This document shows positions 841 to 41,103 of a stretch of 64,000 nt of DNA, piece after piece; position 1 is the stretch's first letter; each line of letters starts with the position of its first letter. The DNA lies in assembly GCA_015179045.1 (NCBI GenBank), contig WHUZ01000022.1:434001-498000 (forward strand). The letters are read 5' to 3'. Position numbers and translations under genes: made by a program. The DNA is from Kalaharituber pfeilii. Its lineage: Eukaryota; Ascomycota; Pezizomycetes; Pezizales; Pezizaceae. Under the pieces are notes generated by a model. The model saw nothing but the letters and a program-made list of their open reading frames with translations, searched no databases and had not been told where the DNA came from.

Positions 841-1692
841 CTAGAGACATTTAATACTATAGAGTCTAATATTATTCTCAAGAATGCAGTTAATGAGAGC
901 TGAGAAGTACTTAAAAAGTACTACACTGGCACCTATACTTATACAGCTTACTTGATAGCTACGATTTTAGATTCTTGTATAAAATTAAAGGGATTTTGCA
1001 CTCAAGATTGGAGTGATGAAGATATTAAAAATGCAAAGACGAATACATTATTAATTTTCAAGCAAGACTATTTACCAGTAGCAGAGCAGCTACAAGATGA
1101 AGTTTCCTTCTCACAGATATCTGATTCTTACTTTAACTCTTTTGATGATGATTTTGGATTCGATTTACAGTCATCTTTTCCGGAACCTGAGGATGATAGT
1201 GAACAAAATGAGCTGGAGTGGTACCTAGATGAAAAACTGAAAGGTCTTTTTTTTTTTTTTTTTTTTGTCACATGACCCCGCATGCGGCTCTTCACCATGG
1301 CAGGACAAACTGAAAGGTCAAAAGATTAATGTACTAGCATAGTGGAAATCCCGAGCTGGGATGTCACCAAATCTAGCCCGCATGGCACGAGATTATTTAG
1401 CAATACCTGCCTCTTCTGTTTCCTCCGAACAGATATTCTCCCAGGTAAGTATTTCAAAAACTATCTCTACTAGTAGTCTAGCTAAGCTGACAATTTACTA
1501 CAGGCAGGCGAGGTTCTCAACAAGCGCCGAAACAGAATGGAAGGTGAGACTATGAGCGCTATCATGTGCTTAAAGTCCTGGTTCAATGTTGATGAGCTGA
1601 AGGAAGCAGTGGAGGAACTTGCAGCAGGAGTAAATGTAGAAGAAATACTCAATTTAGTAGATAGTGGCGAGGAGGATGAAGCTGTAGAATAG
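841..1692 (+). pseudogene. hAT transposase, C-terminal half, interrupted
   Basis: The frame reads through EVLKKYYTG and YLIATILDSCIKLKGF, which resembles the end of the hAT catalytic domain. An acidic linker follows, then SPNLARMARDYLAIPASSVS, EQIFS and GEVLNKRRNRM, the hAT C-terminal dimerisation region. An intron at 1445-1503 (GTAAGT...CTAAG...CAG) joins EQIFSQ to AGEVLNKRR. The stop is at 1690-1692. The copy is dead: a TGA at 901 and a TAG at 1340-1342 (in a position where the family usually has Trp) are G-to-A changes of the RIP kind. A 60-bp LINE tail plus a 13-bp target duplication also sits at 1247-1319. Removing the insertion and one duplication restores the frame, which shows the tail arrived in an already coding sequence. 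Confidence 0.8.
1247..1306 (-). mobile_element. Tail-only LINE insertion, F2-type hairpin
   Basis: About 20 T (poly-A on the minus strand) precede some 40 nt that read GTCCTGCCATGG... on the minus strand. The insertion is flanked by a perfect 13-bp duplication AAACTGAAAGGTC at 1234-1246 and 1307-1319. Nothing upstream of the terminal stem-loop is present. It interrupts the hAT transposase. Confidence 0.9.
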
Positions 1693-1719
1693 TTTAGATT
1701 AGTTATCAATTATATCATG

Positions 1720-1779
1720 TTTTTTTTTTTTTTTTTTTTTATATCATTACTCGCATGCCGCCCTCTGGGCTATGGCGAG
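1720..1779 (-). mobile_element. Tail-only LINE insertion, F1-type hairpin
   Basis: A T-tract is followed by sequence that on the minus strand starts CTCGCCATAGCCC, the first base of the F1 terminal stem (CTCGC pairs with GCGAG). The 12-bp duplication AATTATATCATG flanks it at 1708-1719 and 1780-1791. It lies between the hAT transposase stop codon and the hAT right end. Confidence 0.9.
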
Positions 1780-1927
1780 AATTATATCATGTAATCAAGG
1801 CTCGCTGGCTCGAGCCCACCTTCTTTTTGACGAGCTCGGCTTGAGCCGAGCTCACTTACCCACGAGCTGGCTCGAGCTCACCCTCCAGCTCGGCTCGAGC
1901 AAGCTCGTGCCGCTCACTACTCGTTAT

Positions 1928-2565
1928 ATAGCCAGCTCCCCGCACATGCCCACTGTATGTTCTATTGCTTATGCTATCTATGCTTAACAATCAATATCAA
2001 TGCTTAACAATCAATAACGTCTTGGGAGCTGAGGCTGTGCACAATAAGCCTATGCGTACTCTTGCCACTCGGTGGTGCAACTCACTCATTCAACCATGCG
2101 CTCTGCTTGTGATACACTTCCGTGACCCGACCTGTCAATTGTATTGCCCTGCTGTAGCTATCGGTTGATCAGGCCGTCACTAGCAGCCTTACGGGTCAAC
2201 TCAGGTGGATATCCCCAGCCTCGCTGGGTAGGCCCGTGACAAGGATCATTGAGACATGGTAACTCAAGGTATGTTCAGCACACGATGTAGCATCAAATAG
2301 GTCGTCACTTATATGCTATAGATAAGCCTAGAAAACGTGAGGGAGATAATTTGATGTATTTCTCCCACGTTCTAGCCTCATTCTACGTCCATCAAAAGGT
2401 CTTTTGCACTCATAGTAATGTTTCGTTGTGGCATCCGAAAAGTGTGCAATATCCCGGTAGCCTGCATTACTACTCTGATCACTTCCGCTACCGTCACTTC
2501 TTCTCAAACAGCTCATAATACTGCATTTCTCTAGTACTACCTCCAAGAAATAAAACAAAAGCACT
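1928..2565. other. Intergenic, no feature recognised
   Basis: Mixed-composition sequence between two hAT-type elements. Only short open frames are present and none resembles a known protein. Confidence 0.4.
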
Positions 2566-2573
2566 CTTTGACT

Positions 2574-3444
2574 CAATGAATCCAACAGGCCAGGCCGGCC
2601 GACCAGGCCGGTATTCTCAGTGGCCTGGACCGGCCTGATCCACATGAATCAGGCCAACCAGGCCAGTCCAGGCCAATCAGGCCGGTCCAGGCCATTCAGG
2701 CCATTCAGGCCGGTTCAGACCATTCAGGCCGGTTCAGGCCATTCAGGCCGGTTCAGGCCATTCAGGCCGGTTCAGGCCATTCAGGCCGGTTCAGGCCATT
2801 CAGGCCGGTTCAGGCCATTCAGGCCGGTTCAGGCCATTCAGGCCGGTTCAGGCCATTCAGGCCGGTTCAGGCCATTCAGGCCGGTTCAGGCCATTCAGGC
2901 CGGTTCAGGCCAATTAAACGAATCACTCCACAGCTATCCAGCTGAATTGAGGCCAGCATTTACCAGATTGTTTGAATATTTAAATGAGTAGAATCTCCCG
3001 TATGTCTAGGATTTTAAACAGCAGCGGTCTACGACTTTTGTCAAGTATGTATCACACTTTGTATTCAAGTATATATACTAAGAAATATTTTAGAAATGAT
3101 GGACCTTCCAGATAATACAACAGACTGGACTCAATTGTTCGATGATGATACCTGATGCGCAACTGTCAATTACTGATAGTGGAAGTATCCAGGACTATTA
3201 AAATCTAATTCACCTGGGTTAAATTCCAAAATCGCTTGAATTTACGTAAATGGCCTGGTCGGCCTGGACTGGCCTGAATGGCCTGAACCGGCCTGAATGG
3301 CCTGGACCGGCCCTCACGGCCTGGCCTGAAATTGTCACGGCCTGGCCTGAACAATTTCAGGCCAGGCCAGGCCCAGAATTTCACGGTCCAGGCCAGTCCA
3401 GGCCTCCGGTTGGCCTGGCCTGGCCTGGCCTGTTGGATTCATTG
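2574..3444. mobile_element. Non-autonomous hAT-like element with repeat-array arms
   Basis: The termini are a perfect inverted repeat: CAATGAATCCAACAGGCC on the left and its complement ending at 3444. It is flanked by the 8-bp direct duplication CTTTGACT (2566-2573 and 3445-3452), the hAT hallmark. Both arms are built of AGGCC-containing units in opposite orientation: a 19-bp array on the left, and GGCCTGAATGGCCTG-type units at 3250-3430 on the right. The 330-bp middle has no transposase. It differs from the GAGCTCG hAT family elsewhere in the window. Confidence 0.85.
2678..2912. repeat. 19-bp minisatellite inside the hAT-like element
   Basis: About a dozen near-perfect tandem copies of AGGCCATTCAGGCCGGTTC form the left subterminal arm. 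The period is 19 nt, so any translation repeats every 19 residues; this is an array artefact and not a protein. Complementary units occur in the right arm. Confidence 0.9.
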
Positions 3445-3840
3445 CTTTGACTAGCCATTGCAGATGCAAAAGCTGTCTTTGACTGACGATGGCTAGTCAC
3501 AGAGTACTAGGATGCGTCCTGGTGCCGATTTATCCTAATCATGATTTTTTTTATCGATAAGGTGGCGTACATCCACAGGTTGGAATCGGGTCAGAGACAG
3601 GGCTGATATCGCTTCACAATATATTCAAAAGAGAAAATATTTTTTTCAAATCCCAGCCTAGATTATCAAAAGAATAGTAAGAATAGTTGTTCGCCTTCAC
3701 CTCCGGCTGGTGCGGGGCAATAGACGAACCTTTAATTTTCCTTTTCCTACATTCTTCAGTTTTCATAGTATCATTTAAGGCTCATATTTCTGACTCCGAC
3801 ACTTCAAGTTATCTTGCGACATTTCAAGTTATCTCCTTAC

Positions 3841-3909
3841 ATGTAACTAAACATCGCCATAGCCCATAGGGCGGCACGCGAATAATGATATATATATATA
3901 AAAAAAAAA
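3841..3909 (+). mobile_element. LINE 3' tail, F1 type
   Basis: The sequence reads ATCGCCATAGCCCATAGG, then the 3' side of the stem, AATAATGATATATATATATA and oligo-A. It matches the end of the 1.15-kb F1 LINE at 44691-45840. I could not identify its 5' boundary or a target duplication. It lies about 180 bp beyond the 3' end of the HET gene. Confidence 0.65.
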
Positions 3910-4088
3910 CCACTACTGCCTAGTTCTTAAATTCGTCTCACAAGGGGGCCGTAGCCCCCTGTAGGAGCATCTAGTGGGCCGCTGATTATATTGCCCGAAT
4001 TCTGTTACAAAACACGTCAGCAGGCGAGCCTATAGGGAAACCCAGCTGCGCTAGTTACCGAAATATCTGCTATTGACGGAAGTCATAC

Positions 4089-6648: not shown

Positions 6649-6675
6649 TATAATCTACTACAGTCAGACCTTCTA

Positions 6676-7464: not shown

Positions 7465-7466
7465 TA

Positions 7467-8229: not shown

Positions 8230-8518
8230 AGTAATTGTTGCAATATTCAATGAACGACAATTATGACAGGGGCTGTGACTCACATTTCTCCCTCCCTCCA
8301 CCTCTTCAAAAGTACGGTCAACAGCAGTCTCGAACCAGGCTGCGGTCAACAGCACGTTCTTTTTTTTTTTTTTTTTTTTTTTTCACATGACCCCGCTTGC
8401 AGCTGTTCGCCATGGCAGGGCCAACAGCACGTTCAACAATACCCTCAATAGCACATTTTACAAGTTATTCAACAGCCCCTGTCATAGTTGTCTTTTCATG
8501 AATATTGCAACAATTACT
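8230..8518. mobile_element. MITE with ~47-bp inverted arms
   Basis: The left arm 8230-8276 starts AGTAATTGTTGCAATATT. The right arm 8472-8518 is its complement with only a few mismatches over 47 nt, both ending in ACAGGGGCTGT on the inner side. Without the LINE tail inserted at 8360-8421 the element is about 214 bp. No clear target duplication was found and no coding capacity is present. Confidence 0.75.
8360..8421 (-). mobile_element. Tail-only LINE insertion, F2-type hairpin
   Basis: A T-tract is followed by sequence reading GCCCTGCCATGGCGAACAG on the minus strand, beginning at the foot of the terminal stem. A perfect 13-bp duplication CAACAGCACGTTC is at 8347-8359 and 8422-8434. It lies within the fold-back MITE at 8230-8518. 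Confidence 0.9.
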
Positions 8519-15715: not shown

Positions 15716-15726
15716 AAGGATACTCT

Positions 15727-16219
15727 ATTCCCTCCTATAGAGGGATTTTGCAACATCCGGGTAAAGTTGTTTGGGTGATTACAAAGCATGATTGTTAAGC
15801 GCAAAAATAACCGTAACAGCAAGAGGGATTTTGCACACGATTTAGGGCTTGTGACTTGGGTAAAATTATGCAAGCTTTTAGTCAAGATTTAGCCTCACTT
15901 GTTTCGGCCCAAAATAGGCCGAGTTTAGAATACATTGCTTGTCGCACAACTTGCTGACAGTGTCTGAAGAAGCTATAAACTGAAATGCGACATAAAAAAC
16001 TGATTTGGTATCAAATCCAAGTTATCCCAAGAAAAGGAGTTTAAGCGGTATACTTGCTGTTAATTAACCTGTATGTATGCTGTTAACCGCGCCACAAACA
16101 CTTCGTTGCCACAGCAACATCGCTTTATAATTACCCGAACAGCGTTACCCGGATGTTGCAAAATCCCTCTTATAGGCTCGTAGCCTTTATGCGGGGTTTC
16201 CTGATCAAAAAAAAAAAAA
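15727..16219 (+). mobile_element. Tail-only F3 LINE insertion, split by a MITE
   Basis: Removing the MITE at 15739-16170 and one copy of TAT leaves a 50-60-nt unit ATTCCCTCCTATAGGC...GCGGGG...AAAA, the F3 terminal hairpin plus poly-A. Its target duplication is AAGGATACTCT: complete at 15716-15726 on the left, and on the right AAGGATA (16220-16226) continued as CTCT after the second MITE at 16227-16401. The order of events is therefore LINE tail first, then each MITE. Confidence 0.8.
15739..16170. mobile_element. 432-bp MITE with ~50-bp inverted repeats
   Basis: The left end AGAGGGATTTTGCAACATCC and its complement at the right end (to 16170) match over about 50 nt, with substitutions only in the inner half. 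A TAT triplet is duplicated on both sides, giving the pre-insertion F3 tail sequence CCTATAGG. An internal third copy of GAGGGATTTTGCA lies near 15821. No open frame of note. A 3-bp duplication would suit a PIF/Harbinger-type mover, but this is inference. Confidence 0.8.
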
Positions 16220-16226
16220 AAGGATA

Positions 16227-23152: not shown

Positions 23153-23166
23153 AATTGAGGAAGCCT

Positions 23167-23210
23167 TTTTTTTTTTTTTTTTTTTTTTTTGTCACGTGAC
23201 CCCGCGTGCA
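23167..23210 (-). mobile_element. Ultra-short LINE tail insertion (20 nt + poly-A)
   Basis: A run of about 24 T precedes only 20 nt (on the minus strand TGCACGCGGGGTCACGTGAC), the last part of an F2-type tail. A 14-bp duplication AATTGAGGAAGCCT / AATTGAGGAGGCCT (one mismatch) flanks it at 23153-23166 and 23211-23224. Confidence 0.85.
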
Positions 23211-25589: not shown

Positions 25590-26405
25590 GGCCAACAACG
25601 TTAAGAATCTGTCATTTTGTTTCAGGAAATACGGGACATTGCACAAGATGTAAGTTGAAAGCCCTGGGACCTACTTTTATTTTTTAATCCTTTTTTGTTC
25701 GGACATCAAATTTTTACTTGATATCCTGGCAATATTTTTTTTTTTTTTTTTTTTTTTTTTATTATCAGGTAACCCTGCTGCGCTGTCCCAACTTTGCTGT
25801 CTCAACAGTAGTTGTGTCACCGACCGGGATTCACATGTCTAGAATTGCGTCATGTGAATTTGTTTGATATGGCGAAATCAATATCCAAAGCTTGCAGAAT
25901 TGGTGCCTAAGCGTGCAAGGAACCACTGAAAATATAAAGTTATCAAAGGTACCAAGCTCTGCATGCAAGTAATCTTCAACTTCCTTCGCTGGATTCATTT
26001 GCTTATTTTCCAGTGCTTGGCAATATGTAGGATTGATGCAAGCGAACCACTTAATATACGATCTATATGTATGTATGCATGTATCTATGGGATATTAGGA
26101 CTGCGGGCCTGACGGTCGATCCCCGTGGGTTCCCGAGTTTACTATTCGGCGTCACCATGGATAGCTGAATAAGTTGCTTTTGCTAGTCGTTTAAATAACT
26201 ATTATGAGACTTCTGTCAGGACGTATATCATACCCCCCCTTTGGCCTTCTCCACTTGAACCGCGCTCTGCTCCCGATTATTCGGCTTTCACTGTGCGGTT
26301 AGATTTGTTTCTGGGCCCCAAACTCCCTCGTCTCGTAGTGTCAACACTTATATTTTCGACGGCATTACATTAGTTGGTCAAAAATCGGCTCTCAGAAGCA
26401 ATATC
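25590..26405 (+). promoter_or_regulatory. Upstream region shared by both helicase copies
   Basis: It aligns with 50240-51130 through blocks such as ATTTTGTTTCAGGAAATAC, GATATGGCGAAATCAATA and TGCGGGCCTGAC. Conservation of about 0.8 kb upstream of both start codons shows that the duplication carried the promoter. Copy 1 alone has a T-tract with a LINE-like GGTAACCCTGC motif at 25737-25780, so a tail insertion probably entered this promoter after the duplication. Confidence 0.6.
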
Positions 26406-29400
26406 ATGCCCCGAAAGAAATCGTGCGTCAGCTCACTGCTTCCTCCCATCCCTTCCTTCATTTGAGCGTTGCACTACGGCATCTAACTTGAGGCTATGTA
26501 GATCCGGCAAACAACCGGAGCAGTCTACCCGACAACCGCAATCCACCAAAAATACAAAACAAGAAACAAAACCGCAATCTAACGCAAAACCGCAATCCAG
26601 CCAGAAACCGCAACCTAGTCCAAAGAAGACTCAACCCAATGCAGGTCCTTCAACCTGGCAACTACCTATAGCTAGCACCGAGAAGGCTGTGTGCCGTATG
26701 TTCTACATCCTCGGAATCTGCCACCTAGGAACACAATGTAAAAACTCTCACGACCAAACTGTGGCCCATGCAGTCCCGGGCCCCCCCCGGGTCTCTGTTT
26801 TCCAAACAGCCCCTGCTGCCCCAAGACCTCCCGCGGTCCCAAAAGCCCCAGTGGTACCAAGACCCCTTGCAGTCCCAAAAGCCCCCGTGGTCCCACCAGC
26901 CATTCGATTCCACGGCATCGACGCCGAGACTCTTTACCGCATCTGGAGTAAGCTTCTGGATCCTACCGGAGGAAGCGCCGGAGGCGTGGCCACCAGCCGC
27001 AACAAAAAGGGAAAACAAAAACTTCCCAAGAGCCTCAACTTCAACCAAACGGAGGAATTCCTGGCTACCGCGCTGCAAATTCTTCGAATTGGTAGCAGAG
27101 AGACCGTGGAACAGCTCATCCGCAGCTTGGGCTCGGAAGCCGGCCTGCATCGCATCCAGCAATTTCAGGAAGCCGTGATCAATTCGTCGGGGCACGAAGC
27201 AGTAATGCACTCATTTACGCTGCATTGCATCCCGTTCGTACAGATTCTGGCGCATGAGAAAATGCACGACGCGTTGGCTCCCAAGCAGGTAATTGCGAAG
27301 TTGTTCAAATGCGTTTTGGGGGGTAAGAAGCACACGCGTGGGAGGGCGTTCTTTCTTCGGGTAATGCAAGGTCTCGAGCACGCTCATGCGGCGGGAGGGA
27401 GCATTATGACCGACGATGCGTTGTATGCGGTGGCATCGGCGATGTTCAACACGCTGGACTTGAATCAGGGGGTGCTGGTGCCGCAGGAGTTCAGGGACCT
27501 CGCTCTTCGTCTCCAGAAGGTTATTTCCCGTTCAGCCACTGTTACCAGTGACACGACCATCTCTGCGCAGCACGAGATCGCACGCATCAAAGCACTCCTT
27601 AGGATCGACAATCCGACCCCGGGGAACGCCGTCAGTCCAACTATCGCAAGCACTACAGTAATACAGACCACCCATCCGACTCCAGGCACGGTCATCAGTC
27701 CAACTACCGCACCCACCAAAGTGCTCCGAACCACCAATCCGACTCCAGTAACCGTCGTCAGTCCAACTATCGCACGCATCCATGATGTCTTCCACACTGC
27801 CAATTCGACTCCGCGTACCGCCGTCAGTCAGCCAATCCAGTTTCACCATAGAGTTGTTTCGCAACCAGATGTCGATTTCCCTGGACATCTCTCTCTTGAA
27901 GGCCCGCGACATGACAACGACCACGCCGATATCGCAAAAATTGAGGTGTTACCCACGATAGATGAAATCCTCTCATACCGAAATCCGTTCCTTCCGCAGC
28001 GTTCCCTCGATTATCCTCACCACTGTCAAGGCATCTCACGCGTGCTGGACTTTCAGTTCCGGCTATTGAGGGAGGATACTGCTGGACAGATTCGCGATGC
28101 CCTCAAGATAGTGCTGGATGAGTGGGATGATTTAGTTGTACAGCAAGCAAATCGAGCCGCTACAAGTTCAAACAGCCCACAATGTAAAGTGCTCGATACG
28201 CGAATCTTTATTCATACAAACCCGAGAGTTGAAAGTGTGAGGTGCTCGAACCGTGAGGGCATCATGCTTGTGGTAAGCCTTGACCAGCCTTCTAACGTAC
28301 AGGGTGTCAATTTAACGCAGCGGAGGGAATGGTGGGAAGCAACGAAATCCCTGTCTTCGGGTTCCCTCCTTTGCATGGTAGACTGCGAAAAGAGGGCGAC
28401 ATTCATGGTTGTCTCTGAACGGATTGTGGCTGCCACTGAACAGAGGCGTGAGAACACAGGTACTGAACCTGCAGACTCAAACCCGAGTGTCGCACGAGGC
28501 CCGAAACTGGACCTAACCAGTAACAGTAAACGCGCGTACATCACCCTGCGATTGGTGAAGAACATCATACACAGCGACATCGACACCATCTTCACGGTTG
28601 ACACCACTGGAGTGCAAAAAGCGCTCGTCGAGTTTCCCAATTTCCTCTTCGTCTCCTTCGACCCCATTCTGCGGTCCCTGCAGTCAGTCTCCAGGCATAA
28701 GAAACTGCCATTTCAGCAATGGCTTGCACCGTCGCCCGTGATTGGGTATCCTGCGGATCCTCGTTCAGAACAATATGTAAAACTTCCTCCTCCACGGTAC
28801 ATGACACAACCGGGAGTGAAGTTGAACCTGGATAGCATTTCGAAGCGTGGCTATAGTTTGCGTTATTCACTCACTAAGCAATTGACAGTGGCGCAGCTGC
28901 AGGAGGCAACTACCCTGGACCCTGGGCAATGTGAGGCGTTGCTGGCGAGTTTGAGCAGAGAGCTGGCATTAATACAGGGGCCCCCGGGCACCGGAAAGTC
29001 GTACCTGGGTGTTCGGCTGGTGAAGGTTCTGCTTGCAAATAGAGCAACAACTGGCATAGGGCCAATTATCTGCGTGTAAGTGCACTCCCGTGAGATTTCC
29101 AAGTGCAGATTCCCCGAAATGCGTGGCTAATATTATGTTTCTTGTGAAGATGCTACACCAATCACGCATTGGACCAGTTTCTTGAGAATCTGCTCAATGA
29201 GGGAGTCGCGAATATAATCCGTATCGGCAGCCGCTCACAATCGCCCCGGATTGCCGCCCTATCCCTTCATAATGCTCTACAAAACTTCCCCCGAGCGCCT
29301 ACGCCAGAGCGTCGTGCAGTATTTAGTACTTTGAAGAACTTGCACAAGATCGAGAGAGCCATCGAGGGCACAAGCACCCAGCTTCTTCAACTGTCTAACC

Positions 29401-31623
29401 CAGAATATTTAAAGTACTTCCTGGAAAGCACGTACCCGTCGGCGTTCTCAGAGATCTTTAACACGGTGGACGATGAGGGATTCGAACGCGTATTAAGAGG
29501 TGCGCGCCGTGATGACAAGCACCTCCTCAACGAGTGGCTCGCGGGTCGTTTAAATACCCGGAGTGTCACGCTTCAGACAAATCGTCCTCTTGCCATACTC
29601 CGCAAAACCAGTGTCCTTGCATTGTCAGAAGTAGAGCGGCGTAGGCTCCTAGACTGCTGGCAACAGGAGATGAAATCTCAGAGCACTGAGTATCTTATAG
29701 AAGCCGCCTTCGACCACGACGCGCAGCGACAGCTCCTAAACTCCCAACACCAAGCGCAAGACCGGCGGTGCCTCCAAGCAGCTCATGTCATCGGCGTCAC
29801 GACAACCGGGCTCGCGTTGAATGCCGACCTCATCAGGTCTCTGGACGCCAAGGTGCTGATTTGCGAGGAGGCCGCAGAGGTGTTAGAAGCTCATATTCTA
29901 ACTGCACTGATCCCGACAATGGAGCACGCGATCCTCATCGGAGACCACTTGCAGCTCCGTCCGCAGATCACAAAGTACGATTTTGACGTCGAGAACCCGC
30001 GGGGCGGCACGGCGTATGGACTTAATACATCGTTGTTTGAGAGGATGGTGGAGGTGGAGCGATATGGCGGAAAGCGGTTCCCAATTGCGAAGCTCGACAC
30101 ACAAAGAAGAATGCACCCTTCCATTGCCAACCTTGTACGCAACACCTTGTATCCAGACCTCAAGGACGACCTGTCGACAGCCAACCATCCTATGGTCACT
30201 GGAATGGCAAAACGTCTCTTTTGGATGGACCATAGGAACCCAGAAGAAGGTGATGACAATCGGCAGCTGCAGGGGTCAACGTCGTATGCGAACCCGTGGG
30301 AGGCCGATATGGTTGTGGGCCTAGTTCAACATTTAGCTCGGCAGGGCACTTACAAGAGTAGAGATATTGCGGTATTATCACCGTACTTGGGACAATTGTC
30401 GATTCTGAAGAAGAGGTTGGCATCGACATTTGAGGTTGTTGTTGGGGAACGAGATCAGGAGCAGCTGGACGAGATGATTGCAGCAGGACATCTGGAGGCT
30501 GAGTCGACGCAATTTGTCAAGAGAGGAGATTTGTCGAGTGAGGTTAGGGTTGCTACAGTGGATAATTTTCAGGTGTTTTGATTGCCCCTTTATTTTAGTG
30601 TCAAAGACATACCCTAACACGATTCTTGCAGGGTGAAGAGGCAAAAGTTATCGTCATTTCGCTTGTGAGGAGCAACAACAAGAACAAGTGCGGTTTCCTG
30701 AAGACAAAAAACAGAATTAATGTTCTCCTAAGGTCAGTAGTGTTCCTACTTTACCCCTTCCGTCAATACTGCAAGGTAGTTCTTAACATACGGAACACGA
30801 GCTGACATGTATATCTACTAGTCGTGCGAAAGAGGGAATGTACATTATCGGAAATGCCGACACCTGTGGTAGAGTTCCCATGTGGAATGAGATAATCTCT
30901 ATGCTGGAGCAAGGGCGCAACATCGACCGCCAACTCCAAATTTGTTGCCCTCGCCATCCAAGATTTCCTATCTTTGTCGAGGATCCCCAAGATTTCAGCC
31001 GCTTCTCACCCGAAGGCGGCTGCATTGAGAAGTGCCAGTGGTTCCTAAGCTGCGGCCATCCGTGCGTCAAGAATTGCCACTCGGAGCTTCTGCACCAGAC
31101 CACAAAGTGTCAGGTGCGGTGCAACAAATTGTTCGAGTACTGCCGTCACGCGTGCCCAAATAAGTGCGGGGAGCCCTGTGGTGACTGCAACAAAAAGGTA
31201 AAAGGAGTCCCGTTGCCATGCGGTCATGTCCCGAAAAAGCTGCTGTGCCACCAGTTGCTGGATCTGCCAGAGGTCTGGTGCCCAGTGCTAATCCAGAGGA
31301 AACTGGAGCGGTGCGGACACACGGCCATGGTCCCCTGTTCAGAGAACCCGACTCGATACCGATGCAAAATGCAGTGTTGGGGCATATTACCATGCCGGCA
31401 CTGGTGCATGTCGGAGTGCTGGGTTTGCAGCGGGAATGTTCACGGCCCATGCCTCGCGCTCTGCGGGCGGAAACATACGGCCTGTGCTCACATTTGCGAA
31501 GACCCTTGCCACGGCGCAGAACAGTGTCCTCCGTGCAACTGTGCCACCACGGTTGCCCCGTTCATGACTGGGCCGAGCCAATCAGTATCCTATGAAGGTC
31601 ATCAGTGGTACAACATTAACTAG
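26406..31623 (+). CDS. CCCH + UPF1-like helicase + NFX1-type zinc-finger protein, copy 1
   Basis: Five exons: 26406-26422, 26502-29075, 29150-30572, 30632-30732 and 30822-31623, giving 1638 residues. All introns are GT-AG and 59-89 nt; branch points are visible in several. A basic Q/S/K-rich N-terminus precedes a CCCH finger (C70, C79, C85, H89). Superfamily-1 motifs follow: Walker A GPPGTGKS 832-839; VCYTNHALDQFLE 864-876; EEAAE near 1103; GDHLQLRPQ near 1128; QRRMHPS near 1182; VDNFQGEEAKVIVIS across the exon 3/4 junction; NRINVLLSRAKEGMY across exon 4/5. The last ~250 residues are Cys/His-rich (CGHPC, CGEPCGDC, CGHVPKKLLC), as in NFX1-type fingers. Relatives (animal ZNFX1, fission yeast Hrr1) work in RNA silencing and RNA surveillance. 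A similar role here is inference. A LINE starts one base after the stop codon. Confidence 0.88.
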
Positions 31624-32303
31624 GTTTTTTTTTTTTTTTTTTTTTTACTATCATTACTCATGTGCTGCCCTGTGGGCTATGACGAGATTAGTTACCTAGA
31701 AGATAAAGGAAATAAAATAGAACATAACCAACAAGTAGAAGATAAATAAAACTCAAGGAGAATTATCTCTGTCCACCTCAACTTAAAGTGTCCCTTCCCC
31801 CTCGCCTATGGCAGCGGGCCTGTATACCGCTTCCAACCCCCCGGCCATTTCCTCCTCCACTCCTCGCATTTGTGCATGTATGTCGCTGTTTCCTCCTCCT
31901 CCTCTTCACATCACCTACATTCTGGGCTGTCCGCCTTGCCCACTTTGTGCCTCCACACCCCCTCGTGTGGACCCTCAGGCCTTCTCCTCCCAGGAGGCCT
32001 GCCAGAGTGCGCGCCGTAACCCTAGTCTCTGCAGCGGTCAGTCTGTTCCTTTCCGGGGTTCGCTGTGCCTTGGCCGCCTTGCGTCTCCTCGCCTCGCCCA
32101 CGGCCTCATGCTGGTAAGGTAGAAAGCCTCCAACTTTTGCCGCCTTATCCGCCTCTTAGTTACCTCTTAGTCCCTTATCTCTCTTGACCCACATTATCGC
32201 CATGTCCAGGCCTCATCATGCTATCCTTCCTTCCCAGGCACTCCTGCACATCCAGCTGGCTCCATACGGGGCTGGCCTTCCCTCCGCAATCTTCTTCAGT
32301 CTG

Positions 32304-32541: not shown

Positions 32542-34587
32542 TTCCACAGGCTCCAGCTGGGAGCACGCAAGGGGAGGAATGCGATCCAGGCGATGGCGAG
32601 GGCGGTAACAAAGGTGCAGAGGTGCCTGCACAGGGGGGGGAGAGCAGCGTGGGTGACGGCGGATGTTAAAGGAGGCTTTAACATCGTGAGGAAGGAGGTG
32701 GTCCTGAGAAGGATTGAGGAGAGGGGGAGCGAGGGGGTGAGAAAGAAGCGGAGGTGGCTGGAGGAGTTTATGGGAGGCAGGGAGTTCGGAGTGTGGTGGG
32801 ACGGCGAGGAGAAAGGGAGGGCCAGGTCGAACGTGGGGGTTCCGCAAGGGTCACCACTGTCACCGGTCATCTTCCTCATCTTCATGGCACCCACCATTGA
32901 GAAGATGGAGAGAAGGCTGAGGGGGGTGGCGATGGGGGCGGAGGTAGAAGTGCCATCGTATGTTGACGACCTGGCAGCAACGATCCTAGACTGGCACGGG
33001 TACTGGGATATGGGGCGGCTCAGGGAGAAGGTGAAGGTGGCGATGGCGGAGGTGGCGGAGGAAGACCAGATCCCGCTGGAGGAGTCGAAGTGGGAGATGA
33101 TAACCTTCGGGGTGGGAAGGAGGTGGAAGAAAGAGGGGGAGATGCTAAAGTGGTTAGGGGTCATCTTCGATGAGAACTTGACCTTTGGCGCACATTGGCG
33201 AAACAGGCTGAGCCGAGCGCGGAGGCTGGCGGGGGCTCTCTCGGGACTGGGCAACCGGAACTGGGGGATGTCTCCACGCAGCTGGAGGCAAGCCTACACG
33301 GGGATGGTGAGGGCGGTTGCAATGTGGGGAAGCGAGATCGGGTGGAGGGGACAGAAGGAATGGAGGAAGGAGATGGAGAGTGTCCAGCTGCAGGTGTTGA
33401 AGAAGGCGGCTGGAGGAGGGAGAGGAGCGGGGATAGGAGGGGTGAGTGCGGTGTGTGGAGTGGAGGACGTGGAGACGGCCCTGGATGGCGCGCAAGCGAG
33501 GGCGATCGTCCGGGAGGTGGAGGCGCCGTCAGAGCTGGCGGAGCTTTGCACGGGCGACTTCGGAGGGAGTGAGGAGAGAGAGGAGGAGGCGAGAAACTGG
33601 AGAGACTGGGGGGTGCAGTGGGCGGTGGTCGAGAATGAGGGGTATGAAGCAGTGCTGGACCGCTGGCAAGGTCAGTGGGCGAGGTTCTCGGAGGAGGGGG
33701 AGGAGATCTCGTGGGGAGGGGGGTGTGAGAAGGTGGAGGTGGAAGTGGTGGAGAGGCGGAAAGGAGAAGTGGAGACGAGGGGGGAGTGGGAAGTCGCGAT
33801 CGGGGAAGCCGGAAGAAAAAGGGCAGTCCTTTTCTCCGACGGCAGCAAGATCGAGGACAGCAAGGTGGGAGCAGGGGTGTGGGGGAGGTCGGCAGCCGTG
33901 GCGGAGGTGGTGGGGAGAACGGCGACGGTGTTCGATGGGGAGGTGAGGGGAGTGAGAAAGGCGCTGGAGAGTGTGGAGGAGGAGGTCCCTGTACTGATCT
34001 GTTTAGATTCTGAGGCTGCCGTCATGGCGATCCAGAAGGCAGGCAGGGAGGGAAAGGGGAAAACCGAGGATGTGAGGAGAGTGGTGGATGCCGTTGCGAG
34101 GAGGAAGAAGAAGGGAGGAGATGCGAAGCTGATGTGGGTCAAGGCTCACATCGGAATCGCAGGAAATGAGAAGGCGGATGAGTGGGCGAAGAAGGGGACG
34201 GTGATGCAGGGGAAGGAGGTGGCCACCGGAAGTGGGGTGCGCCAGAGGGTGAAGGCGTGGAGGAAGGAGAAGAGAGGAGTGGAGGGCTTTGGAGGAGGAA
34301 AGGTCATGGAGTGGAATAGGATAGCAGTATCCAATTTCACTGCCTTGCGCCTGGAGAGAGGGAGGTGTGCGGTGTGGTTGAAGAGGATAGGGGCGGCTGA
34401 GTCGGATAAGTGGAGGTGCGGGGAGGTGCAAACCGGGGAGCACCTCGCTTTCCGATGCAGAAACCAGAAGAACCGTCCAGAAGGCTTTGAGAGGTGGGGC
34501 GACATGGAAAAGAATTGGAAGAGAAAGGCGGAGAATGGGGAGGAGTATGACGTTTTGGAGAATTTCTTCGCTGGGGTCCAGTTCTAG
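32542..34587 (+). CDS. Tad-like LINE ORF2 fragment (RT-RNase H), open
   Basis: The frame is open from the 5' truncation point to a TAG at 34585-34587, 681 codons with no internal ATG needed for the reading. RT motifs are ADVKGGFN (motif A Asp), NVGVPQGSPLSPVIF and VPSYVDDLA (YVDD). RNase H carries FSDGSK, FDGEVRG, LDSEAAV and AHIGIAGNEKADEWAKKG, so the expected acidic residues are present. The end has a CGEVQTGEHLAFRC knuckle. The endonuclease and first RT blocks are missing, so this copy cannot be autonomous. It probably came from an active source element elsewhere. Confidence 0.88.
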   Translation, partial: FHRLQLGARKGRNAIQAMARAVTKVQRCLHRGGRAAWVTADVKGGFNIVRKEVVLRRIEERGSEGVRKKRRWLEEFMGGREFGVWWDGEEKGRARSNVGVPQGSPLSPVIFLIFMAPTIEKMERRLRGVAMGAEVEVPSYVDDLAATILDWHGYWDMGRLREKVKVAMAEVAEEDQIPLEESKWEMITFGVGRRWKKEGEMLKWLGVIFDENLTFGAHWRNRLSRARRLAGALSGLGNRNWGMSPRSWRQAYTGMVRAVAMWGSEIGWRGQKEWRKEMESVQLQVLKKAAGGGRGAGIGGVSAVCGVEDVETALDGAQARAIVREVEAPSELAELCTGDFGGSEEREEEARNWRDWGVQWAVVENEGYEAVLDRWQGQWARFSEEGEEISWGGGCEKVEVEVVERRKGEVETRGEWEVAIGEAGRKRAVLFSDGSKIEDSKVGAGVWGRSAAVAEVVGRTATVFDGEVRGVRKALESVEEEVPVLICLDSEAAVMAIQKAGREGKGKTEDVRRVVDAVARRKKKGGDAKLMWVKAHIGIAGNEKADEWAKKGTVMQGKEVATGSGVRQRVKAWRKEKRGVEGFGGGKVMEWNRIAVSNFTALRLERGRCAVWLKRIGAAESDKWRCGEVQTGEHLAFRCRNQKNRPEGFERWGDMEKNWKRKAENGEEYDVLENFFAGVQF

Positions 34588-34743
34588 AAGGTAGGAGAAT
34601 GCGGGGTCAAGTTCTCGAAGCTAGGAGAGTGGGGGCGACGGCGCGTGGGGGCCATGTATGTAGAGAGTTAGTTTAGCCTGTCTCCGGGCTATGAGGGCTT
34701 GCCCAGGGACCCTGCCATGGCCAAGTGCTACAAGCGGGGTTAT

Positions 34744-34777
<34 letters not shown>
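32542..34777 (+). mobile_element. F2 LINE, 2.24 kb, youngest of the nest
   Basis: It is bounded by the perfect 17-bp duplication TGCTTCCACCCTTTCTC (32525-32541 and 34778-34794), inserted in the F3 LINE in opposite orientation. It is 5' truncated inside the RT domain but otherwise complete: ORF2 remainder, 3' UTR, terminal hairpin and a 25-28 A tail. Very GC-rich relative to its surroundings and free of stop codons, so it shows no RIP damage. Confidence 0.92.
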
Positions 34778-34796
34778 TGCTTCCACCCTTTCTCCT

Positions 34797-36771
34797 CTAA
34801 GTCCTCCCAGCACTGCCAGGTGACCATCTCCCACTCTGCTTCTTTCTCTTGGGCCGTTCTAGCTCGCCACACTCGAACACCACATGTTCTGCACTCCAAG
34901 CTGCTCCACAAGAACACCACACCTCCCCTCCACTGATTTCCTCCTCCACATGGCTCCGCCTTTCCCAGTCCGCAGCCAGATGTAGTTGGTGGGGGCCCTT
35001 CTGCACCACTTCACGAACTTGCCCTTCCCGAACCCAGCTCGCTCCCTCTCCTTCTTTCTCTTTCGAACTAACTCCTGGCGCAGACCGCCCTCAGTCGCCT
35101 GCCTCATGCACCTGGCCCCCTCTTTGGCCCTCTCATCTGCAATCTCATTGCCCTCTATCCCCACATGGCCCACGCAAGCCTCACAGCTCCAGGATCCCTC
35201 AAGTTCCGCCGCCTTTCTGCCACGAGCTCTACTACACGTGCCAGGTCTGCAGTCCCCGCTTTTCCGGTTTTCCCTGCTGTCTTAACTGCGCTGATTGCTG
35301 CCTGAGAGTCTGCAAGCAGTAACACTTTCGCCCTGCCATCCACCGCCTCGAGGGCCCCTCTCATGCCTGCAACCTCTCCATCCCATACCGTCGCCTTGGT
35401 GCCGACCCACCGGGACCCTTCTGATTCCCCTGCCACTACCTGTTTCCAGCACCATCCACCTCCAACCCCTCCTTCCTCACTGCGACTACCATCTGTGAAT
35501 ATGGCTACGGAATCGCCCTTGGCCTTGCTGATAGCCTTTTCCCACTTGGCTGGAGTATCCTCCTTACCCAGCTTAAGGTCAGTGACCTCGATTTCTGTTC
35601 CAAGTGGTTGGACTTCCTGCCCCCAGGACACTTTCTCATCCCCATCAACCTCAATTGTGCTGGCAATCTTAACTGCTACTGACTCGAAGCCATCATTTTT
35701 CACTGTGGCGTATGCTAGGCTGAAGTCTCTCCAGTCTCTTCCCTTCTCCCCTTCTCGGTCTGGGTCTGCGGTTTCAACCCCTCTGAAGCTCTCAGGCCAT
35801 AGATCACCTACCCCTGTAGGGTCTCTTATTGACCTTAGAGCATGCCCTGCCATGGCGAACAGCTGCATGCGGGGTCACGTGATTAATAAAAAAAAAAAAA
35901 AAAAGACCTTAGAGCATATCTTGCTTGGCTCTGATCCAGGATTGTGCCCACACTCTCAACGCCTGCAATTGCCTCCATCTTCCCTCTCGCTGCTCCTTGC
36001 ACCGCCCCTGTACACTTACGAAGGGCCTGATACTGAAGCCTCTCGAACTCCTCTCTCCAATGCTTCTGGCCTCTCCACCCAATCTCTGACCCCCACAGTG
36101 CCACTGCCCTTACCATGCCTGTGTATACCTTTCTCCATGAGAGCGGGCTCATGCCCCATTGTGAGTTGCCTAACCCAGACAAGACGCCCAGGAGCTTCCT
36201 GGCTTTCTCAATCCTGCTTTTCCAGTGATGATCGAAGTCGAGACTCGAGAGTGCTATTGCAGATCACTCCTAACCACTTGCACTTCTCAACATCTGCCCT
36301 CCTCTTGGTCTTCTCACCAATAACTAGGACCTCCTCCTTTGAGGTCTCCAGTGGTAGGCCGTAGGTCTCAGCAACCTCCCTGACTACTCCTGCAATTCTC
36401 TCCCCATTTCTCCTCATATCCTTTCCTCCTCCCCAGTCCAGAATGACGCAGTTCATGTCATCCACAAATGAGGGCAGCTCTACTTCGCAATCTCTCACTA
36501 CTGCGGCTACCTTTGTCTCCATCTCTTCCAGAATTGGTGCCATGTAGAGTAGGAACATGACTGGGGATAAAGGCGAGCCTTGCGGTACACCTACGTTCGA
36601 CCTGCCGTTGCCTCTCACCTGTCCATCCCATTCTACCTCAAACTCCCGCTCCCGGAAGAAGGTCTCCAGCCAGGGCAGCCATTTCTCGGCCATAGAACCC
36701 TGCATACGGTTCTTGACCACATCCCATCGTGTGTTCCCAAAGCCTCCCCTGACATCCTCCATGATCCACAC
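34797..36771 (-). pseudogene. F3 LINE ORF2 remnant: RT, RNase H, zinc knuckle
   Basis: In order: RT motifs EDVRGGFGNTRWD, NVGVPQGSPLSPVMF and LPSFVDDMNCV (FVDD active site); then GLGNSQWGMSPLSWRKVYTG; then RNase H with FTDGSR, WDGEVAG, LADSQAA and GIEGNEIADERAKEG; then a C-terminal CSCGAAWSAEHVVFEC knuckle. At least three frameshifts (near 36200, 35160 and 35000) and the tail insertion at 35844-35904 break the frame. The endonuclease domain is absent because of 5' truncation. Confidence 0.85.
35844..35904 (+). mobile_element. Tail-only LINE insertion, F2-type hairpin
   Basis: The unit reads GCCCTGCCATGGCGAACAGC, then GCGGGGTCACGTGATTAAT and poly-A. A perfect 13-bp duplication GACCTTAGAGCAT lies at 35831-35843 and 35905-35917. 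It sits in the RNase H-RT linker of the F3 LINE. Confidence 0.92.
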
Positions 36772-37028: not shown

Positions 37029-37394
37029 TAGTGAGCGGCACGAGCCGAGCCAGCTCGAGCTCAAACGAGCCAAGATCATGCTTGTGTTTTTCTTGACAGC
37101 TCGCTAAAATGCTTAGCCAGTGCAACGTTTCATAAACTGTAAATACCTACTATAGTAACAATTAGAGACTTGGAGCTCATTCTGACCTAACAACAACTTC
37201 GAAATGCACAATTTAGCTGATAGTAGTGAGAAACATGAAAATTTAGCTTGGTTTAGTTTAGTTTGTCAATATTATGATCCAGGCTCGAGCTCATGCCACG
37301 CCAGCTCGAGCCAGCTCGAGCCGAGCTCACTTACTCACGAGCTGGCTCGAGCTCACCCTCCAGCTCGGCTCGAGCTAGCTCGTGCCGCTCACTA
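37029..37394. mobile_element. Non-autonomous hAT element, GAGCTCG family
   Basis: The ends are TAGTGAGCGGCACGAGC and its complement GCTCGTGCCGCTCACTA. Both arms are rich in GCTCGAGC/GAGCTCG. ATTGCTCA precedes it and ATTTGCTCA lies 2 nt after it, so the target duplication is probable but not exact. The middle is AT-rich without a transposase. It shares ends with 48874-49165 and with the right end of the hAT element at 1-1919. Confidence 0.8.
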
Positions 37395-37928
37395 AAATTT
37401 GCTCACCAGCCATGGGTCCTCTGCTGGGAGGTCACTGGGCAATTCACCTCAAAGGGATATCTCAGTTGTACTGCGTGTGCCCAATTGAGTGTATCTGCAA
37501 GTGCGAATGTACAAGCAAGGCAAGAACAACTGATGTTTGTATGTATTAAATATAGTAGAAGGTGATCAATAAGAACAGAAATGCAAGCTATATAAAGAAT
37601 AAGTGAAAGCAAAGGAGAACTGAAGACAGGAATAAAGAACTAAACCACAGAATAGAAGAACTAGATGTGTAGGAAGGAACTGGATGTTGAGAACGAAGAG
37701 CTGTACAGGATCACCACCTCTTATACCACTGGCTGACCAAATATCCATTTGTAATCATACTTCCTTCCAGCCTTACCCTCATTCCCAGTATTCGCTTAGT
37801 GTACAACCCTTAGACCTGCATCTTCCTTGAGCCCAGCGCCAGCATGGTTATAGCAGTTAGGCACCGCCGCCTACCACACCATGACACTCAGCACAGGTAA
37901 CATTGTTGGACATGTAGATCGGTTGTTG
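37395..37928. other. Intergenic, no feature recognised
   Basis: Nothing recognisable between the hAT element and the half-LINE. Confidence 0.35.
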
Positions 37929-37936
37929 GTTTCGAG

Positions 37937-38615
37937 TTTTTTTTTTTTTTTTTTTCATGATCACGTAACCCTACATAGAGGCTCTCACCCTATGGCTGGA
38001 CTCCTTTATGACCTGGAGGCAGGTTTGTGACACCGGACTGTGGGCCGGAACACCCATGCTACTTATCTATCTACATGACTTCACCGTGGCTGCTGATGAA
38101 CAAATGCAGACAGACAGTGGATCAAGTGCAATAATACATACAAATGGATTCTTAATCAGTCTCCATTGCATCCTCCCCAGTCCTACCCACCCGCTTTCCT
38201 TTGTCTTACCTTCCCCTATCCCACTCATATGCATCCCATCTGTACTTCCTACCTCTGATACGTAGAGTCTCTGGTATTTGACTAGTCCTACCTGCCCCCT
38301 CCAGGTAAACAACAACAGAACTAGTCACCTTCCCTCCCTCCTCTCTTGCTTCAACAGCCACCGAGCTCCAGCGATTTTTGTGCCCAGTTCATTATCCACC
38401 TCCAACCACTTCTGAACATTCCCCAGTCACTTGGTCACTGCTATCCCATGAACTACTATTGCTCAAGTTGCAGGTCATAGTTGCAGCTTATTTGGTAAAA
38501 GGGGCTTGCTCTTTGCAGTAGAAGTGGCCCTGGAGGCGATGGTCTTTCCTTTGGCACGGGCAGGTGGGTTTCTCTTCTTAACGCTGGGTGGGGTAGAAGG
38601 GTCGTTTCGAAATTG
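37937..38615 (-). mobile_element. Second half-LINE: ORF1 remnant joined to a LINE tail
   Basis: About 20 T, an F3-like tail (CCATAGGGTGAGAGCCTC on the minus strand), about 480 nt, then an ORF1-like frame beginning MSQFRNDPSTPPSVKKRNPP near 38620. A later block, VVVYLEGAGRTSQ, matches the corresponding part of the element at 23443-24330. Spacing from tail to conserved block is similar in both copies, and blocks between them also align. Stops break the frame. Confidence 0.6.
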
Positions 38616-38621
38616 TGACAT

Positions 38622-39400
38622 CTACTCACTAGTAACGTAAGATTTATAGAGGCTGACTACCACAATATATAGGCCATGCGGTGAGCCGCATTATAGCTTC
38701 AATACAAGATCACTTAGTTAAGTAAAAAAAAGAAAAAAAGAAAATAGACCTGAAGTAACAAGCTGATGAGGAAACAAAAAGTAAAATCTTACTGCCAATT
38801 TGGTTTTTTGGATATAGCATGACAACAACGTTTTTTTTCTTCATGTGCTCATGTGCACCCCTGCTGGACTATGTAACAAGAGCTTAGTCACTACCTATGA
38901 GCTTAGTCACTAGTCTACCTACGAGCTTAGTCACTACCTACAAAGTCTGCATCAGAAACAATGAGCTCAATTAACAGCCATGGCAGGTCCCTCTGGACAG
39001 TATGACTTCGAAAGCAAGCCTACCTTGAGTGAGACTGCTGACAGCTCCAATAGCTAGCCTACATTGAGCAGCACTGTGAAGCTAATTTTGACGACTGTAG
39101 GAGTGCAGTCGAAAGCGATTTTTTGTAGATAGCGTAGATTAGTCATTATTTAATAAATTCGTGATTGGCTGCATATTGGCATTTCTGAGAGCTCAGAGCT
39201 AGTGTCAAGCACGATAAGCGCAAGTGCTGAAATAGGCAATCCTATTATGCTATAGGCAAGCACTAGAATATACAGTACGTTCTGGGCCTGGGCTAGAATA
39301 CCCAGTGCCTTGTGGACGCCCACCTTATGTTAGGTACGTAAACTAATTAAATACTAGTACTATACCCTTCCTCTGTATCAGGACGACCAACACCACCTCC
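38622..39400. other. Intergenic, no feature recognised
   Basis: Includes three short direct repeats of GAGCTTAGTCACTA-type sequence near 38881-38935. No gene recognised. Confidence 0.35.
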
Positions 39401-39413
39401 ACAACTTCCCTGA

Positions 39414-39472
39414 TTTTTTTTCTTTTTTTCTTAATATCATTACTCGCGTGCCGCCCAGTGGGCTATGGCGAG
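39414..39472 (-). mobile_element. Tail-only LINE insertion, F1-type hairpin
   Basis: A T-rich tract is followed by a unit that on the minus strand begins exactly CTCGCCATAGCCCACTGG, the foot of the F1 stem. The flanks are ACAACTTCCCTGA (39401-39413) and ACAAATTCCCTGA (39473-39485), a 13-bp duplication with one mismatch. Confidence 0.88.
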
Positions 39473-39485
39473 ACAAATTCCCTGA

Positions 39486-39516
39486 TTTTTTTTTTTTTTT
39501 TTTTTATTTCATTAAT
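39486..39516 (-). mobile_element. Smallest LINE tail: 11 nt plus poly-A
   Basis: About 20 T are followed by ATTTCATTAAT, the complement of the last bases of the F1 LINE at 45811-45822 (ATTAATGAAAT before poly-A). A perfect 13-bp duplication ACAAATTCCCTGA is at 39473-39485 and 39517-39529. It shares its target with the preceding insertion. Confidence 0.8.
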
Positions 39517-39648
39517 ACAAATTCCCTGAGTCAGTCCACCTCCCCTTCGGTGGTAGACACCTTTTCCTACTGGCACTGGCTTGTCATGCTATCAAATCAC
39601 ACCAATACGATTTAAATAGTATGGCGCCTGGGCTCAATTTGACACCGC

Positions 39649-39682
39649 AAGTCAGTATTTGAGTTAACTCGTATACTGACTT
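39649..39682. repeat. 34-nt near-perfect palindrome
   Basis: AAGTCAGTAT and ATACTGACTT enclose GAGTTAACTC, itself a perfect palindrome. Only the tt/gt spacers break the symmetry. It lies just outside the TIR element at 39785. Confidence 0.8.
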
Positions 39683-39784
39683 AACAAATCGGTGTCTGCC
39701 GGGGTGTGAAATCGAACCGGAAGGCAAGTCGGTTTCTTGAAAATGGCCGAGTTGGACTGAATTAACCGACTTGGAAAGCGAGCC

Positions 39785-40582
39785 CACTGTGGTGCAAGGT
39801 TTGTATGCAAAACTTGAGTTATTCCCATGGCAGGTGTCATAACTTGGTTTCACCTACATAAATTTTCCTGCATTGACGCCAGCACAGGTGTCAAGGGGAT
39901 CTTGCGAACTAGTCCCAATACCTTTTCGGGTGTCACTGTGAATCATACTGCACTGACCCCCAACACTGCTATAGTGACACCAAAATGCAGCATCAGATAT
40001 ACACCTCAGTTTACACTCTAGATTTTAAGAACTCTTGTGACACCTGATACCAGCATACTAAGTATAGTACACCATACACAGGTATAATACTAATGATATT
40101 CTGAAAGAGTGTACTTGAAATACCTGCCTATGGAGTCATGACTTGAAACTGCCTGGCAGACTAAATATGGCACAGTTTCAACTGTATACACATGCAGAAA
40201 ACACAAACCCTTCCATAATTTTTTTTTGTGTCAACAGGTTTGAATTTTGTAGCTCAAGTTTATGCTCGCATGTATTTCCCAGTGTTATAGTAGCAGTGTT
40301 AAGTCCTGTAATGAAGTTGAAGGAACTTGGCCTGCTCTTTGCAAATTGATTCGACTCTTCAATGTGATATTACTGCGGTGTCGTAACGCTCCAAAAGAAT
40401 GTCACAGCTGGGTGTCACGTTTCTGATCAGCGGAATTGCACACCCGGCTGCGGTGTAAGTTACAGCACCTTTCGGGTGTACCTGGACACCATTTCAGGTG
40501 TCCTCATACAAAAAGATGACACCCGCGAGATTGACGCCCCGCCAGGGTGTAGTGACTATACCCGACACTTTGCACCACAGTG
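39785..40582. mobile_element. TIR element with subterminal GGTGTCA repeats
   Basis: The left end CACTGTGGTGCAAGG is answered by CTTTGCACCACAGTG ending at 40582. Between them at least ten copies of GGTGTCA or TGACACC occur in both orientations, most densely near the two ends, as with subterminal transposase-binding repeats of hAT/En-Spm-type elements. No transposase frame. No clean target duplication was found. Confidence 0.6.
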
Positions 40583-40603
40583 TGTCATTACTGAGGTGTG
40601 GCG

Positions 40604-40909
40604 CTACTTGTTGTGCCAGGTTAGTCTGAACTTCATTGGTTGGAGGAAGTCGTTCATGAATGCTGCTACGCTATTGCTCTGTTCCTTCACCCATGCTACT
40701 ACTCTCTCTTGCCTGATGTAGCTGAAGGTGGGCTTGGCGTCGTCTCCTACCAGTGCGACCCACTTCCCATTCTTCAGTCGCTTTCGAACTTCCTTCAGGG
40801 TCTGGTGCTGGAGGTCTTCTGCAGGTCTTCTGCACCTCTGTATGGCCTGCCCCCCCAGTTGTGCCTCATGGAACAGTGAGTTTTTAGCTTGCAGGACGTC
40901 GGCAACCAC
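40604..40909 (-). CDS. Hypothetical protein fragment
   Basis: A 101-codon frame contains LKEVRKRLKNGKWVALVGDD and FSYIRQERVVAWVKEQSNSV, which look like real protein rather than a shadow frame. I do not recognise the family. It may be a remnant of a larger gene or transposon whose upstream part has decayed. Confidence 0.25.
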   Translation of the reverse strand: MVADVLQAKNSLFHEAQLGGQAIQRCRRPAEDLQHQTLKEVRKRLKNGKWVALVGDDAKPTFSYIRQERVVAWVKEQSNSVAAFMNDFLQPMKFRLTWHNK

Positions 40910-41034
40910 TTTTTGTCCTCATTTGGCTGTGATGTTTAGGTAATCTTATTTACATATGGTGACTCAAAAGTATATCCTAGAATATGGTTATGTATTATAT
41001 TCCAGTATATGTGACCCCCATGTGCTACAGAGTG

Positions 41035-41103
41035 CCCTGCCATGGCGAACAGCTGCGCCAAGCGGGGTTACGTGAAATTGTAAAAAAAGAGAAAAAAAAA
41101 AAG
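41035..41103 (+). mobile_element. Tail-only LINE insertion, F2-type hairpin
   Basis: The unit begins CCCTGCCATGGCGAACAGC, the first base of the terminal stem, and ends in an A-tract with one G. The 13-bp duplication GTGCTACAGAGTG / GTGCTACAAAGTG (one mismatch) lies at 41022-41034 and 41104-41116. Confidence 0.9.

Follow-up and report, generated by a model that had tools for sequence, protein, structure and literature searches.

Short copies of LINE terminal hairpins with poly(A) in the ascomycete Kalaharituber pfeilii

Introduction

A 64,000-nucleotide stretch of the genome of the desert truffle Kalaharituber pfeilii (Ascomycota, Pezizales; contig WHUZ01000022.1:434001-498000), referred to here as the window, contains short insertions made up of the terminal hairpin of a long interspersed nuclear element (LINE) and poly(A). 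One protein encoded in the window has a K. pfeilii match of 100% identity with 93% query coverage. Loss of 5' sequence from LINEs is usually attributed to the reverse transcriptase falling off (PMC2104539; here and below, statements on published systems refer to the available sections of the papers cited). The question raised by this locus is why these short copies, termed minis, begin at the foot of the hairpin. The original prediction held that unrelated LINE tails in the window share this structural 5' boundary, and that either the reverse transcriptase stops there or a processed hairpin RNA is mobilized. The phenomenon far exceeds the window: units of about 40 bases, each a copy of the last hairpin of one of several LINE RNAs, number well above a thousand in the genome. 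The start at the hairpin foot suggests that the RNA was cut down to the hairpin before copying.

Target-duplicated insertions and their classes

Insertions were collected from the window and 110 further loci (357,151 bases, both strands) by scanning A tracts of at least 9, of which there were 320 before merging, for a 3' flank duplicated upstream. Loci L001-L030 were chosen with a 226-base LINE query, which biases them to longer copies; L031-L110 were chosen with 3'-arm patterns, which place no constraint on 5' ends lying upstream of the pattern. The scan returned 158 target-duplicated insertions, or 144 without duplicates, against 9 in a reversed-flank control (a figure prior to duplicate removal), none of these 9 being shorter than 100 nt. 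Target duplications thus exceed chance, which bears out those noted in the original prediction. An F1, F2 or F3 tail was present on 142 of the 144 insertions, and on 76/78 among copies not used for locus choice. The two without a recognisable tail (L075 and L076) were dropped, although L076 (CACGTG) may retain a six-base tail remnant. Internal tail duplications (L029, and L038 at its anchor) were also dropped, leaving 140.

Insertion bodies cluster at 38-46 nt. The final classes were foot (60), long (58), inside hairpin (13) and semi (9). Four copies were assigned to the foot group by hand (L035 at 410 and L098, later L037 and L060). The long class still includes L038 at 1443, which looks like the internal tail duplication of that locus, and the class of a window copy at 25734 is doubtful, its duplication being weak. 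By tail, the foot share was 21/67 for F1, 38/70 for F2 and 1/3 for F3 in this sample, which was partly chosen by tail or LINE queries; among copies not used for locus choice it was 15/48 for F1 and 16/27 for F2.

Tail hairpins and their parent LINEs

The F2 and F3 tails consist of a CCCTGC...GCGGGG hairpin, a short linker and poly(A), in that order; the F1 tail has a CTCGC...GCGAG hairpin, then TAATGATA and poly(A). The F1 tail is unlike the F2 and F3 tails in sequence but alike in plan. In the window, LINE copies carry coding sequence for reverse transcriptase and RNase H domains. F1 and F2b tails terminate window copies with RNase H or reverse transcriptase domains, and F3 tails, judged by eye, do likewise. 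The A tract lies directly 3' of the LINE tail, a feature built into the scan. Across the 78.03-Mb, 360-contig assembly, to which all genome-wide counts refer, the 3' arm with poly(A) has 2841 matches in the F2/F3 form and 566 in the F1 form. An F2a tail at 42305-42345 has, by eye, LINE-like sequence upstream and a hairpin 3' arm that runs into unrelated sequence with no poly(A).

Positions are numbered on the element strand, with 0 as the first C of the 5' hairpin arm. The basal pair of F1 covaries (C-G 31, A-U 7, other 2, in 40 copies readable by pattern), which is compensatory-change support for the terminal hairpin at one pair only. In F2, base -1 opposes the U that follows GCGGGG, forming A-U in 28, G-U in 26 and U-U in 2 of the 56 F2/F3 copies read. 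Predicted folds of F2a, F2b and F2c in LINE context pair both -1 and -2, so that the F2 stem may extend a pair beyond the mini-insertions.

Position and sharpness of the 5' edge

F2 ends in the sample fall at -2 (7), -1 (20) and 0 (7), with only 3 between -100 and -6; these three positions hold 34 of the 41 ends within -100 to +36 (p ~1e-49, uniform null). F1 ends are concentrated at six positions (20 within -3 to +2, or 20/39 over the same interval; p ~2e-17, uniform null), and a further 12 are scattered from +3 to +28. F3 contributed one foot and two long copies, too few (n=3) to judge a foot excess. The ends are thus not those of ordinary scatter, and the edge lies at, or a few bases from, the stem base in two unrelated hairpins. 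The common structural boundary proposed for unrelated tails is found in F1 and F2, and at genome scale in the commonest F2 hairpin.

This hairpin, CCCTGCCATGGCGAACAGCTRC, has 1634 exact genome-wide matches. A purine at -1 is kept in 1604 (98%), of which 573 also have G at -2; AGGG at -5 to -2 is present in 397 (24%), and five further LINE-type bases in 374 (94% of 397). Reversed-pattern controls gave 0 for each count. The drop in this series from 1604 to 573 and 397 places the edge at -2|-1, where roughly 1,200 copies end. For the commonest hairpin, the genome-wide distribution of ends is therefore the opposite of the smooth one that would speak against a hairpin-bounded unit. The GCCA type with A at -1 occurs 533 times, 338 with G at -2 (37% without), some of the 338 having G by chance. 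The F3 type occurs 271 times, 160 with ATGGGT upstream (41% without), the remainder including mutated context.

The junctions of 38 resolved F2/F3 foot copies agree with this edge. Exactly -1 is the start in 20, while 8 are one base longer and 1 is five bases longer; the other 9 overlap their duplication in a manner compatible with -1, with a purine at -1 in 9/9. In 3 of the 8 one-base-longer copies (L042, L099, L104), the extra base is the LINE's G. Among the F2 foot copies parsed, base -1 is A in 5/5 of the GCCA/GCTT types, and G in 25 and A in 2 of the GAA-loop type (from a partly misparsed table); GAA-loop LINE contexts with A and with G at -1 both exist. Since base -1 tracks the tail type, it looks copied from the LINE and not drawn from random flank. 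The counts gave no support to microhomology as the origin of the edge: G is at -2 in 176/1207 copies without LINE context.

Three F2 copies start at -39, -38 and -32 (L091, L053 and L080), at or near the foot of the next upstream hairpin; the start of L080 shares bases with its duplication. The copies at L091 613 and L053 1489 are 76- and 80-nt F2a copies from that foot, a possible longer unit.

Minis and long copies share their insertion features

Target duplications have a median of 13 bp in minis and long copies alike (p 0.94, whole set); among copies not used for locus choice the medians are again equal, with a rank-test p of 0.045. Both kinds of copy also have a common target preference, with mostly C/T before the duplication and mostly A as its first base. 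Mismatched duplications were commoner in minis than in longer copies (9/31 vs 3/33 among copies not used for locus choice); the average mini may be the older insertion. A tracts were shorter in minis in the whole set (19 vs 23, p 0.0002), but this difference was left unused, the figures for unanchored copies being 19 vs 20 (p 0.15). As to a head of the kind found in short interspersed nuclear elements (SINEs), with an internal Pol III promoter or of tRNA, 7SL or 5S RNA origin, neither a tRNA nor an Rfam family at gathering score was found in the window, and no B box was seen in F1 and F2 bodies read by eye.

How the minis may arise

The explanation we favour, in which we place about even confidence, is that the template is an RNA already shortened to its terminal hairpin, which the enzyme copies as far as it goes. 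LINE reverse transcriptases would recognise the hairpin just upstream of poly(A), and some LINE RNA would be cut or degraded from the 5' side to the hairpin base before integration. The trimming agent could be an endonuclease acting at the stem base, or a 5'-3' exonuclease halted by the folded or protein-bound hairpin. The resulting stub, about 40 nt plus poly(A), would still be recognised and would prime at the usual target nick. Copying to its physical 5' end and joining to the target would then give a complete mini with an ordinary target duplication. For R2, it has been proposed that template RNA is shortened from the 5' side before complementary DNA (cDNA) synthesis and that stable structure bars 5'-3' exonucleases (PMC11331408).

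Several observations argue for such a template. When the polymerase arrives at the foot, the 3' arm is already in an RNA-cDNA hybrid, so the foot should be visible only to an agent acting on folded RNA or cDNA. A pre-cut template is preferred because the hairpin would be gone as a signal at its 5' foot and because of the single-nucleotide precision of the edge in F2. The recurrence of the edge in two unrelated hairpins, the three F2 starts at or near the next upstream foot, and the duplication length and target preference common to minis and long copies also count in its favour. Scatter is seen among ends inside the hairpin, as in the 12 F1 ends noted above, and the near-universal presence of these tails on the 144 insertions is expected under tail-specific recognition.

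Other observations weigh against it. The predicted F2 stem reaches -2, which puts the -1 edge one pair inside, and an exonuclease blocked by the stem should halt at or before -2; confidence in the stub is lowered accordingly, and that in a polymerase stop and in cDNA trimming raised. A stem of 5 to 7 pairs is not obviously enough to block a nuclease unless held by protein, and the F1 peak is broad (-3 to +2). The 13 long and semi F2 ends placed on the F2b LINE coincide with predicted hairpin feet no more than chance would have it (mean score 0.44 vs 0.54, p 0.81), so trimming guided by structure does not operate generally along the RNA. The main gap is that the share of minis differs widely between subfamilies with the same loop, so the hairpin alone is insufficient. 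Stalling at every LINE hairpin was also considered and is unsupported by the same comparison.

The leading alternative, to which we give roughly a one-in-five standing, is that the reverse transcriptase stops once past the hairpin, because it loses its hold on the RNA or meets the next hairpin upstream. A small hairpin is predicted in each of F2a, F2b and F2c, with AGGG between its 3' base and -1, and in the Magnaporthe element MGL template switches occur before GCC triplets that have strong predicted hairpins immediately upstream (PMC2104539). The F1 LINE ends that were folded, however, have no stable hairpin in the A+T-rich stretch immediately upstream of the foot, yet F1 peaks as well. In addition, by the time the enzyme gets to the 5' arm the terminal hairpin has been unwound, and a pause would not usually give an edge sharp to one nucleotide. 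Between the two mechanisms originally put forward, the shortened hairpin RNA thus fits better and the polymerase stop less well.

Trimming of the cDNA is less probable again. Here, a longer cDNA would fold into a DNA hairpin, and its single-stranded 3' end would be cut at the base by a structure-specific nuclease, for which enzymes of the Rad1-Rad10/XPF type are candidates. With such an agent, too, the cut would fall at a structural foot, and more than one kind of hairpin could be its substrate. The nearly equal numbers of A-U and G-U pairs at -1 speak against it, as G-U in RNA becomes a C-A mismatch in cDNA and yet both types end at -1; this argument is weak, since the next outward pair can also form in DNA. 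Long copies, moreover, do not end at hairpin feet.

Equally improbable in our judgement is that the F2a minis form an independent, minimal SINE-like family, with its own short RNA as sole template, moved by other LINEs. The evidence for it lies in the GAA-loop subfamilies. Among the first 100 places listed, counted by hand, 67/78 copies with G at -1 were without LINE context, vs 4/22 with A at -1 (Fisher p ~5e-9); L052, a copy with G at -1, was counted as having LINE context but is a mini by its duplication. Sampled GAA-loop copies with G at -1 comprise 25 foot, 1 inside the hairpin (L037, the copy reassigned to foot), 2 semi and 2 long, the last two being the apparent internal tail duplication at L038 and a mini in an ATT repeat at L060. 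One lineage with this loop thus consists largely of minis and the other largely of longer copies; of the hints that F2a may move as its own unit, this contrast is the strongest. Minis derive from F1, F2b and F3 tails too, so a general process is needed anyway, and the 40-bp unit has no visible promoter. A related, bolder reading is that F2a is the smallest free-living retroposon known: a polyadenylated hairpin RNA of about 38 nt, cut at the stem base, with more than 1,000 copies made by the enzymes of other LINEs and with relatives of 76-80 nt from the next hairpin foot. This we regard as possible but doubtful.

Ordinary random 5' truncation biased to short products, to which the scattered ends of sub-hairpin and long copies would conform, is ruled out to near certainty by the offset histogram with its spike at the foot and by the genome-wide counts with their one-nucleotide edge.

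Features of the window

Six of the seven insertions named in the original prediction are as it described them (Table 1). For those at 1247, 8360, 35844 and 41035 the first base is -1 of the CCCTGC arm, and the two F1 insertions start at 0 (1720) or with one extra base before CTCGC (39414, by eye). The seventh, at 15727, was said to start within 0-3 nt of the foot, which does not hold; by eye, unrelated TCTATT precedes CCCTCC and the duplication amounts only to about AGGATAC. The miniature inverted-repeat transposable element (MITE) reported there is real.

Table 1. LINE-derived copies and the MITE in the window.
Feature	Position	Strand	Remarks
F2 mini, hairpin + A20	1247..1306	-	starts at -1 (G); duplication 1234-1246 / 1307-1319; arm TCCTGC
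F1 mini, hairpin + A tract	1720..1779	-	starts at 0 of CTCGC; duplication ~13 bp
F2a mini, hairpin + A24	8360..8421	-	starts at -1 (G); duplication 8347-8359 / 8422-8434
F3-like short copy split by MITE	15724..16221	+	weak duplication; by eye
MITE inside the F3-like copy	15739..16170		49-nt terminal inverted repeats, 90% complementary (15739-15787 / 16122-16170)
F2 copy, 3' arm only + A24	23166..23209	-	insertion scan
F1 short copy	31625..31687	-	foot preceded by LINE-like bases GTAACTAAT; no clean target duplication; by eye
F2b LINE, 5'-truncated (reverse transcriptase, RNase H, terminal hairpin, poly(A))	32542..34777	+	inside an F3-type copy; parent type of GCCA minis; boundaries by eye; domain search
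F2a mini, hairpin + A tract	35844..35904	+	starts at -1 (G); duplication 35831-35843 / 35905-35917
F1 mini, interrupted A tract	39414..39473	-	duplication 39402-39413 / 39474-39485, one mismatch; by eye; A tract too interrupted for insertion scan
11-nt tail-only copy (below hairpin) + A20	39486..39516	-	adjoins the 39414 mini; insertion scan
F2 mini, hairpin + interrupted A tract	41034..41103	+	-1 G common to duplication, ~41022-41034 / 41104-41116
F1 LINE copy (RNase H domain, terminal hairpin, poly(A))	44691..45840	+	parent type of F1 minis

The F1 LINE copy splits open frames at 43876-47198 that resemble a Pif1-type helicase (by eye, no family search). The products of two paralogous genes, at 26374-31623 and 51320-56182, are large, cysteine-rich and helicase-like, and by eye, with no family search, resemble NFX1. 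A short F1 copy lies near the stop codon of the first gene, and none was seen in the second. At 2580-2945 and 3240-3440 there are arrays of GGCCTGAA-like units and, nearby, a related inverted stretch (by eye).

Known systems and meaning

Stringent-type LINEs such as UnaL2, SART1 and ZfL2 likewise have a hairpin near the 3' end and undergo 5' truncation (PMC3747384, PMC5135761), whereas the ends in K. pfeilii are not simply scattered (foot share 21/67 in F1 and 38/70 in F2). The Mg-SINE of Magnaporthe, with MGL, is also short, non-coding and presumably mobilized by a LINE through a common tail (PMC2104539), but the K. pfeilii minis are headless, with only the tail hairpin and poly(A) and about 40 nt before the A tract. 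The MINE (WEIRD-MGL) chimeras of Magnaporthe have recurrent breakpoints, which their authors tied to fungal LINE RNA structure (PMC2104539). These are template switches that fuse other RNA to MGL fragments of at least 230 nt, whereas the minis have nothing recognisable 5' of the hairpin. For R2 transgene insertion, the proposal is that 5' sequence is lost as the RNA decays ahead of cDNA synthesis and that structure acts as a barrier (PMC11331408); that work used engineered templates and another LINE clade, and no natural hairpin-bounded family was found in its available sections. The open-access literature, outside which most subscription papers lie, has work on hairpin-bearing LINE tails, on SINEs that carry LINE tails and on template switching linked to structure, but no earlier description was found there of a retroposon composed of nothing but a LINE terminal hairpin and poly(A). 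No related sequences were found in a viral-contig scan.

With more than 1,000 copies ending at one nucleotide at the base of a terminal hairpin, the idea that LINE RNA is shortened first becomes testable. If the stub reading is true, it would suggest that the minimum for LINE mobilization is about 40 nt plus poly(A).

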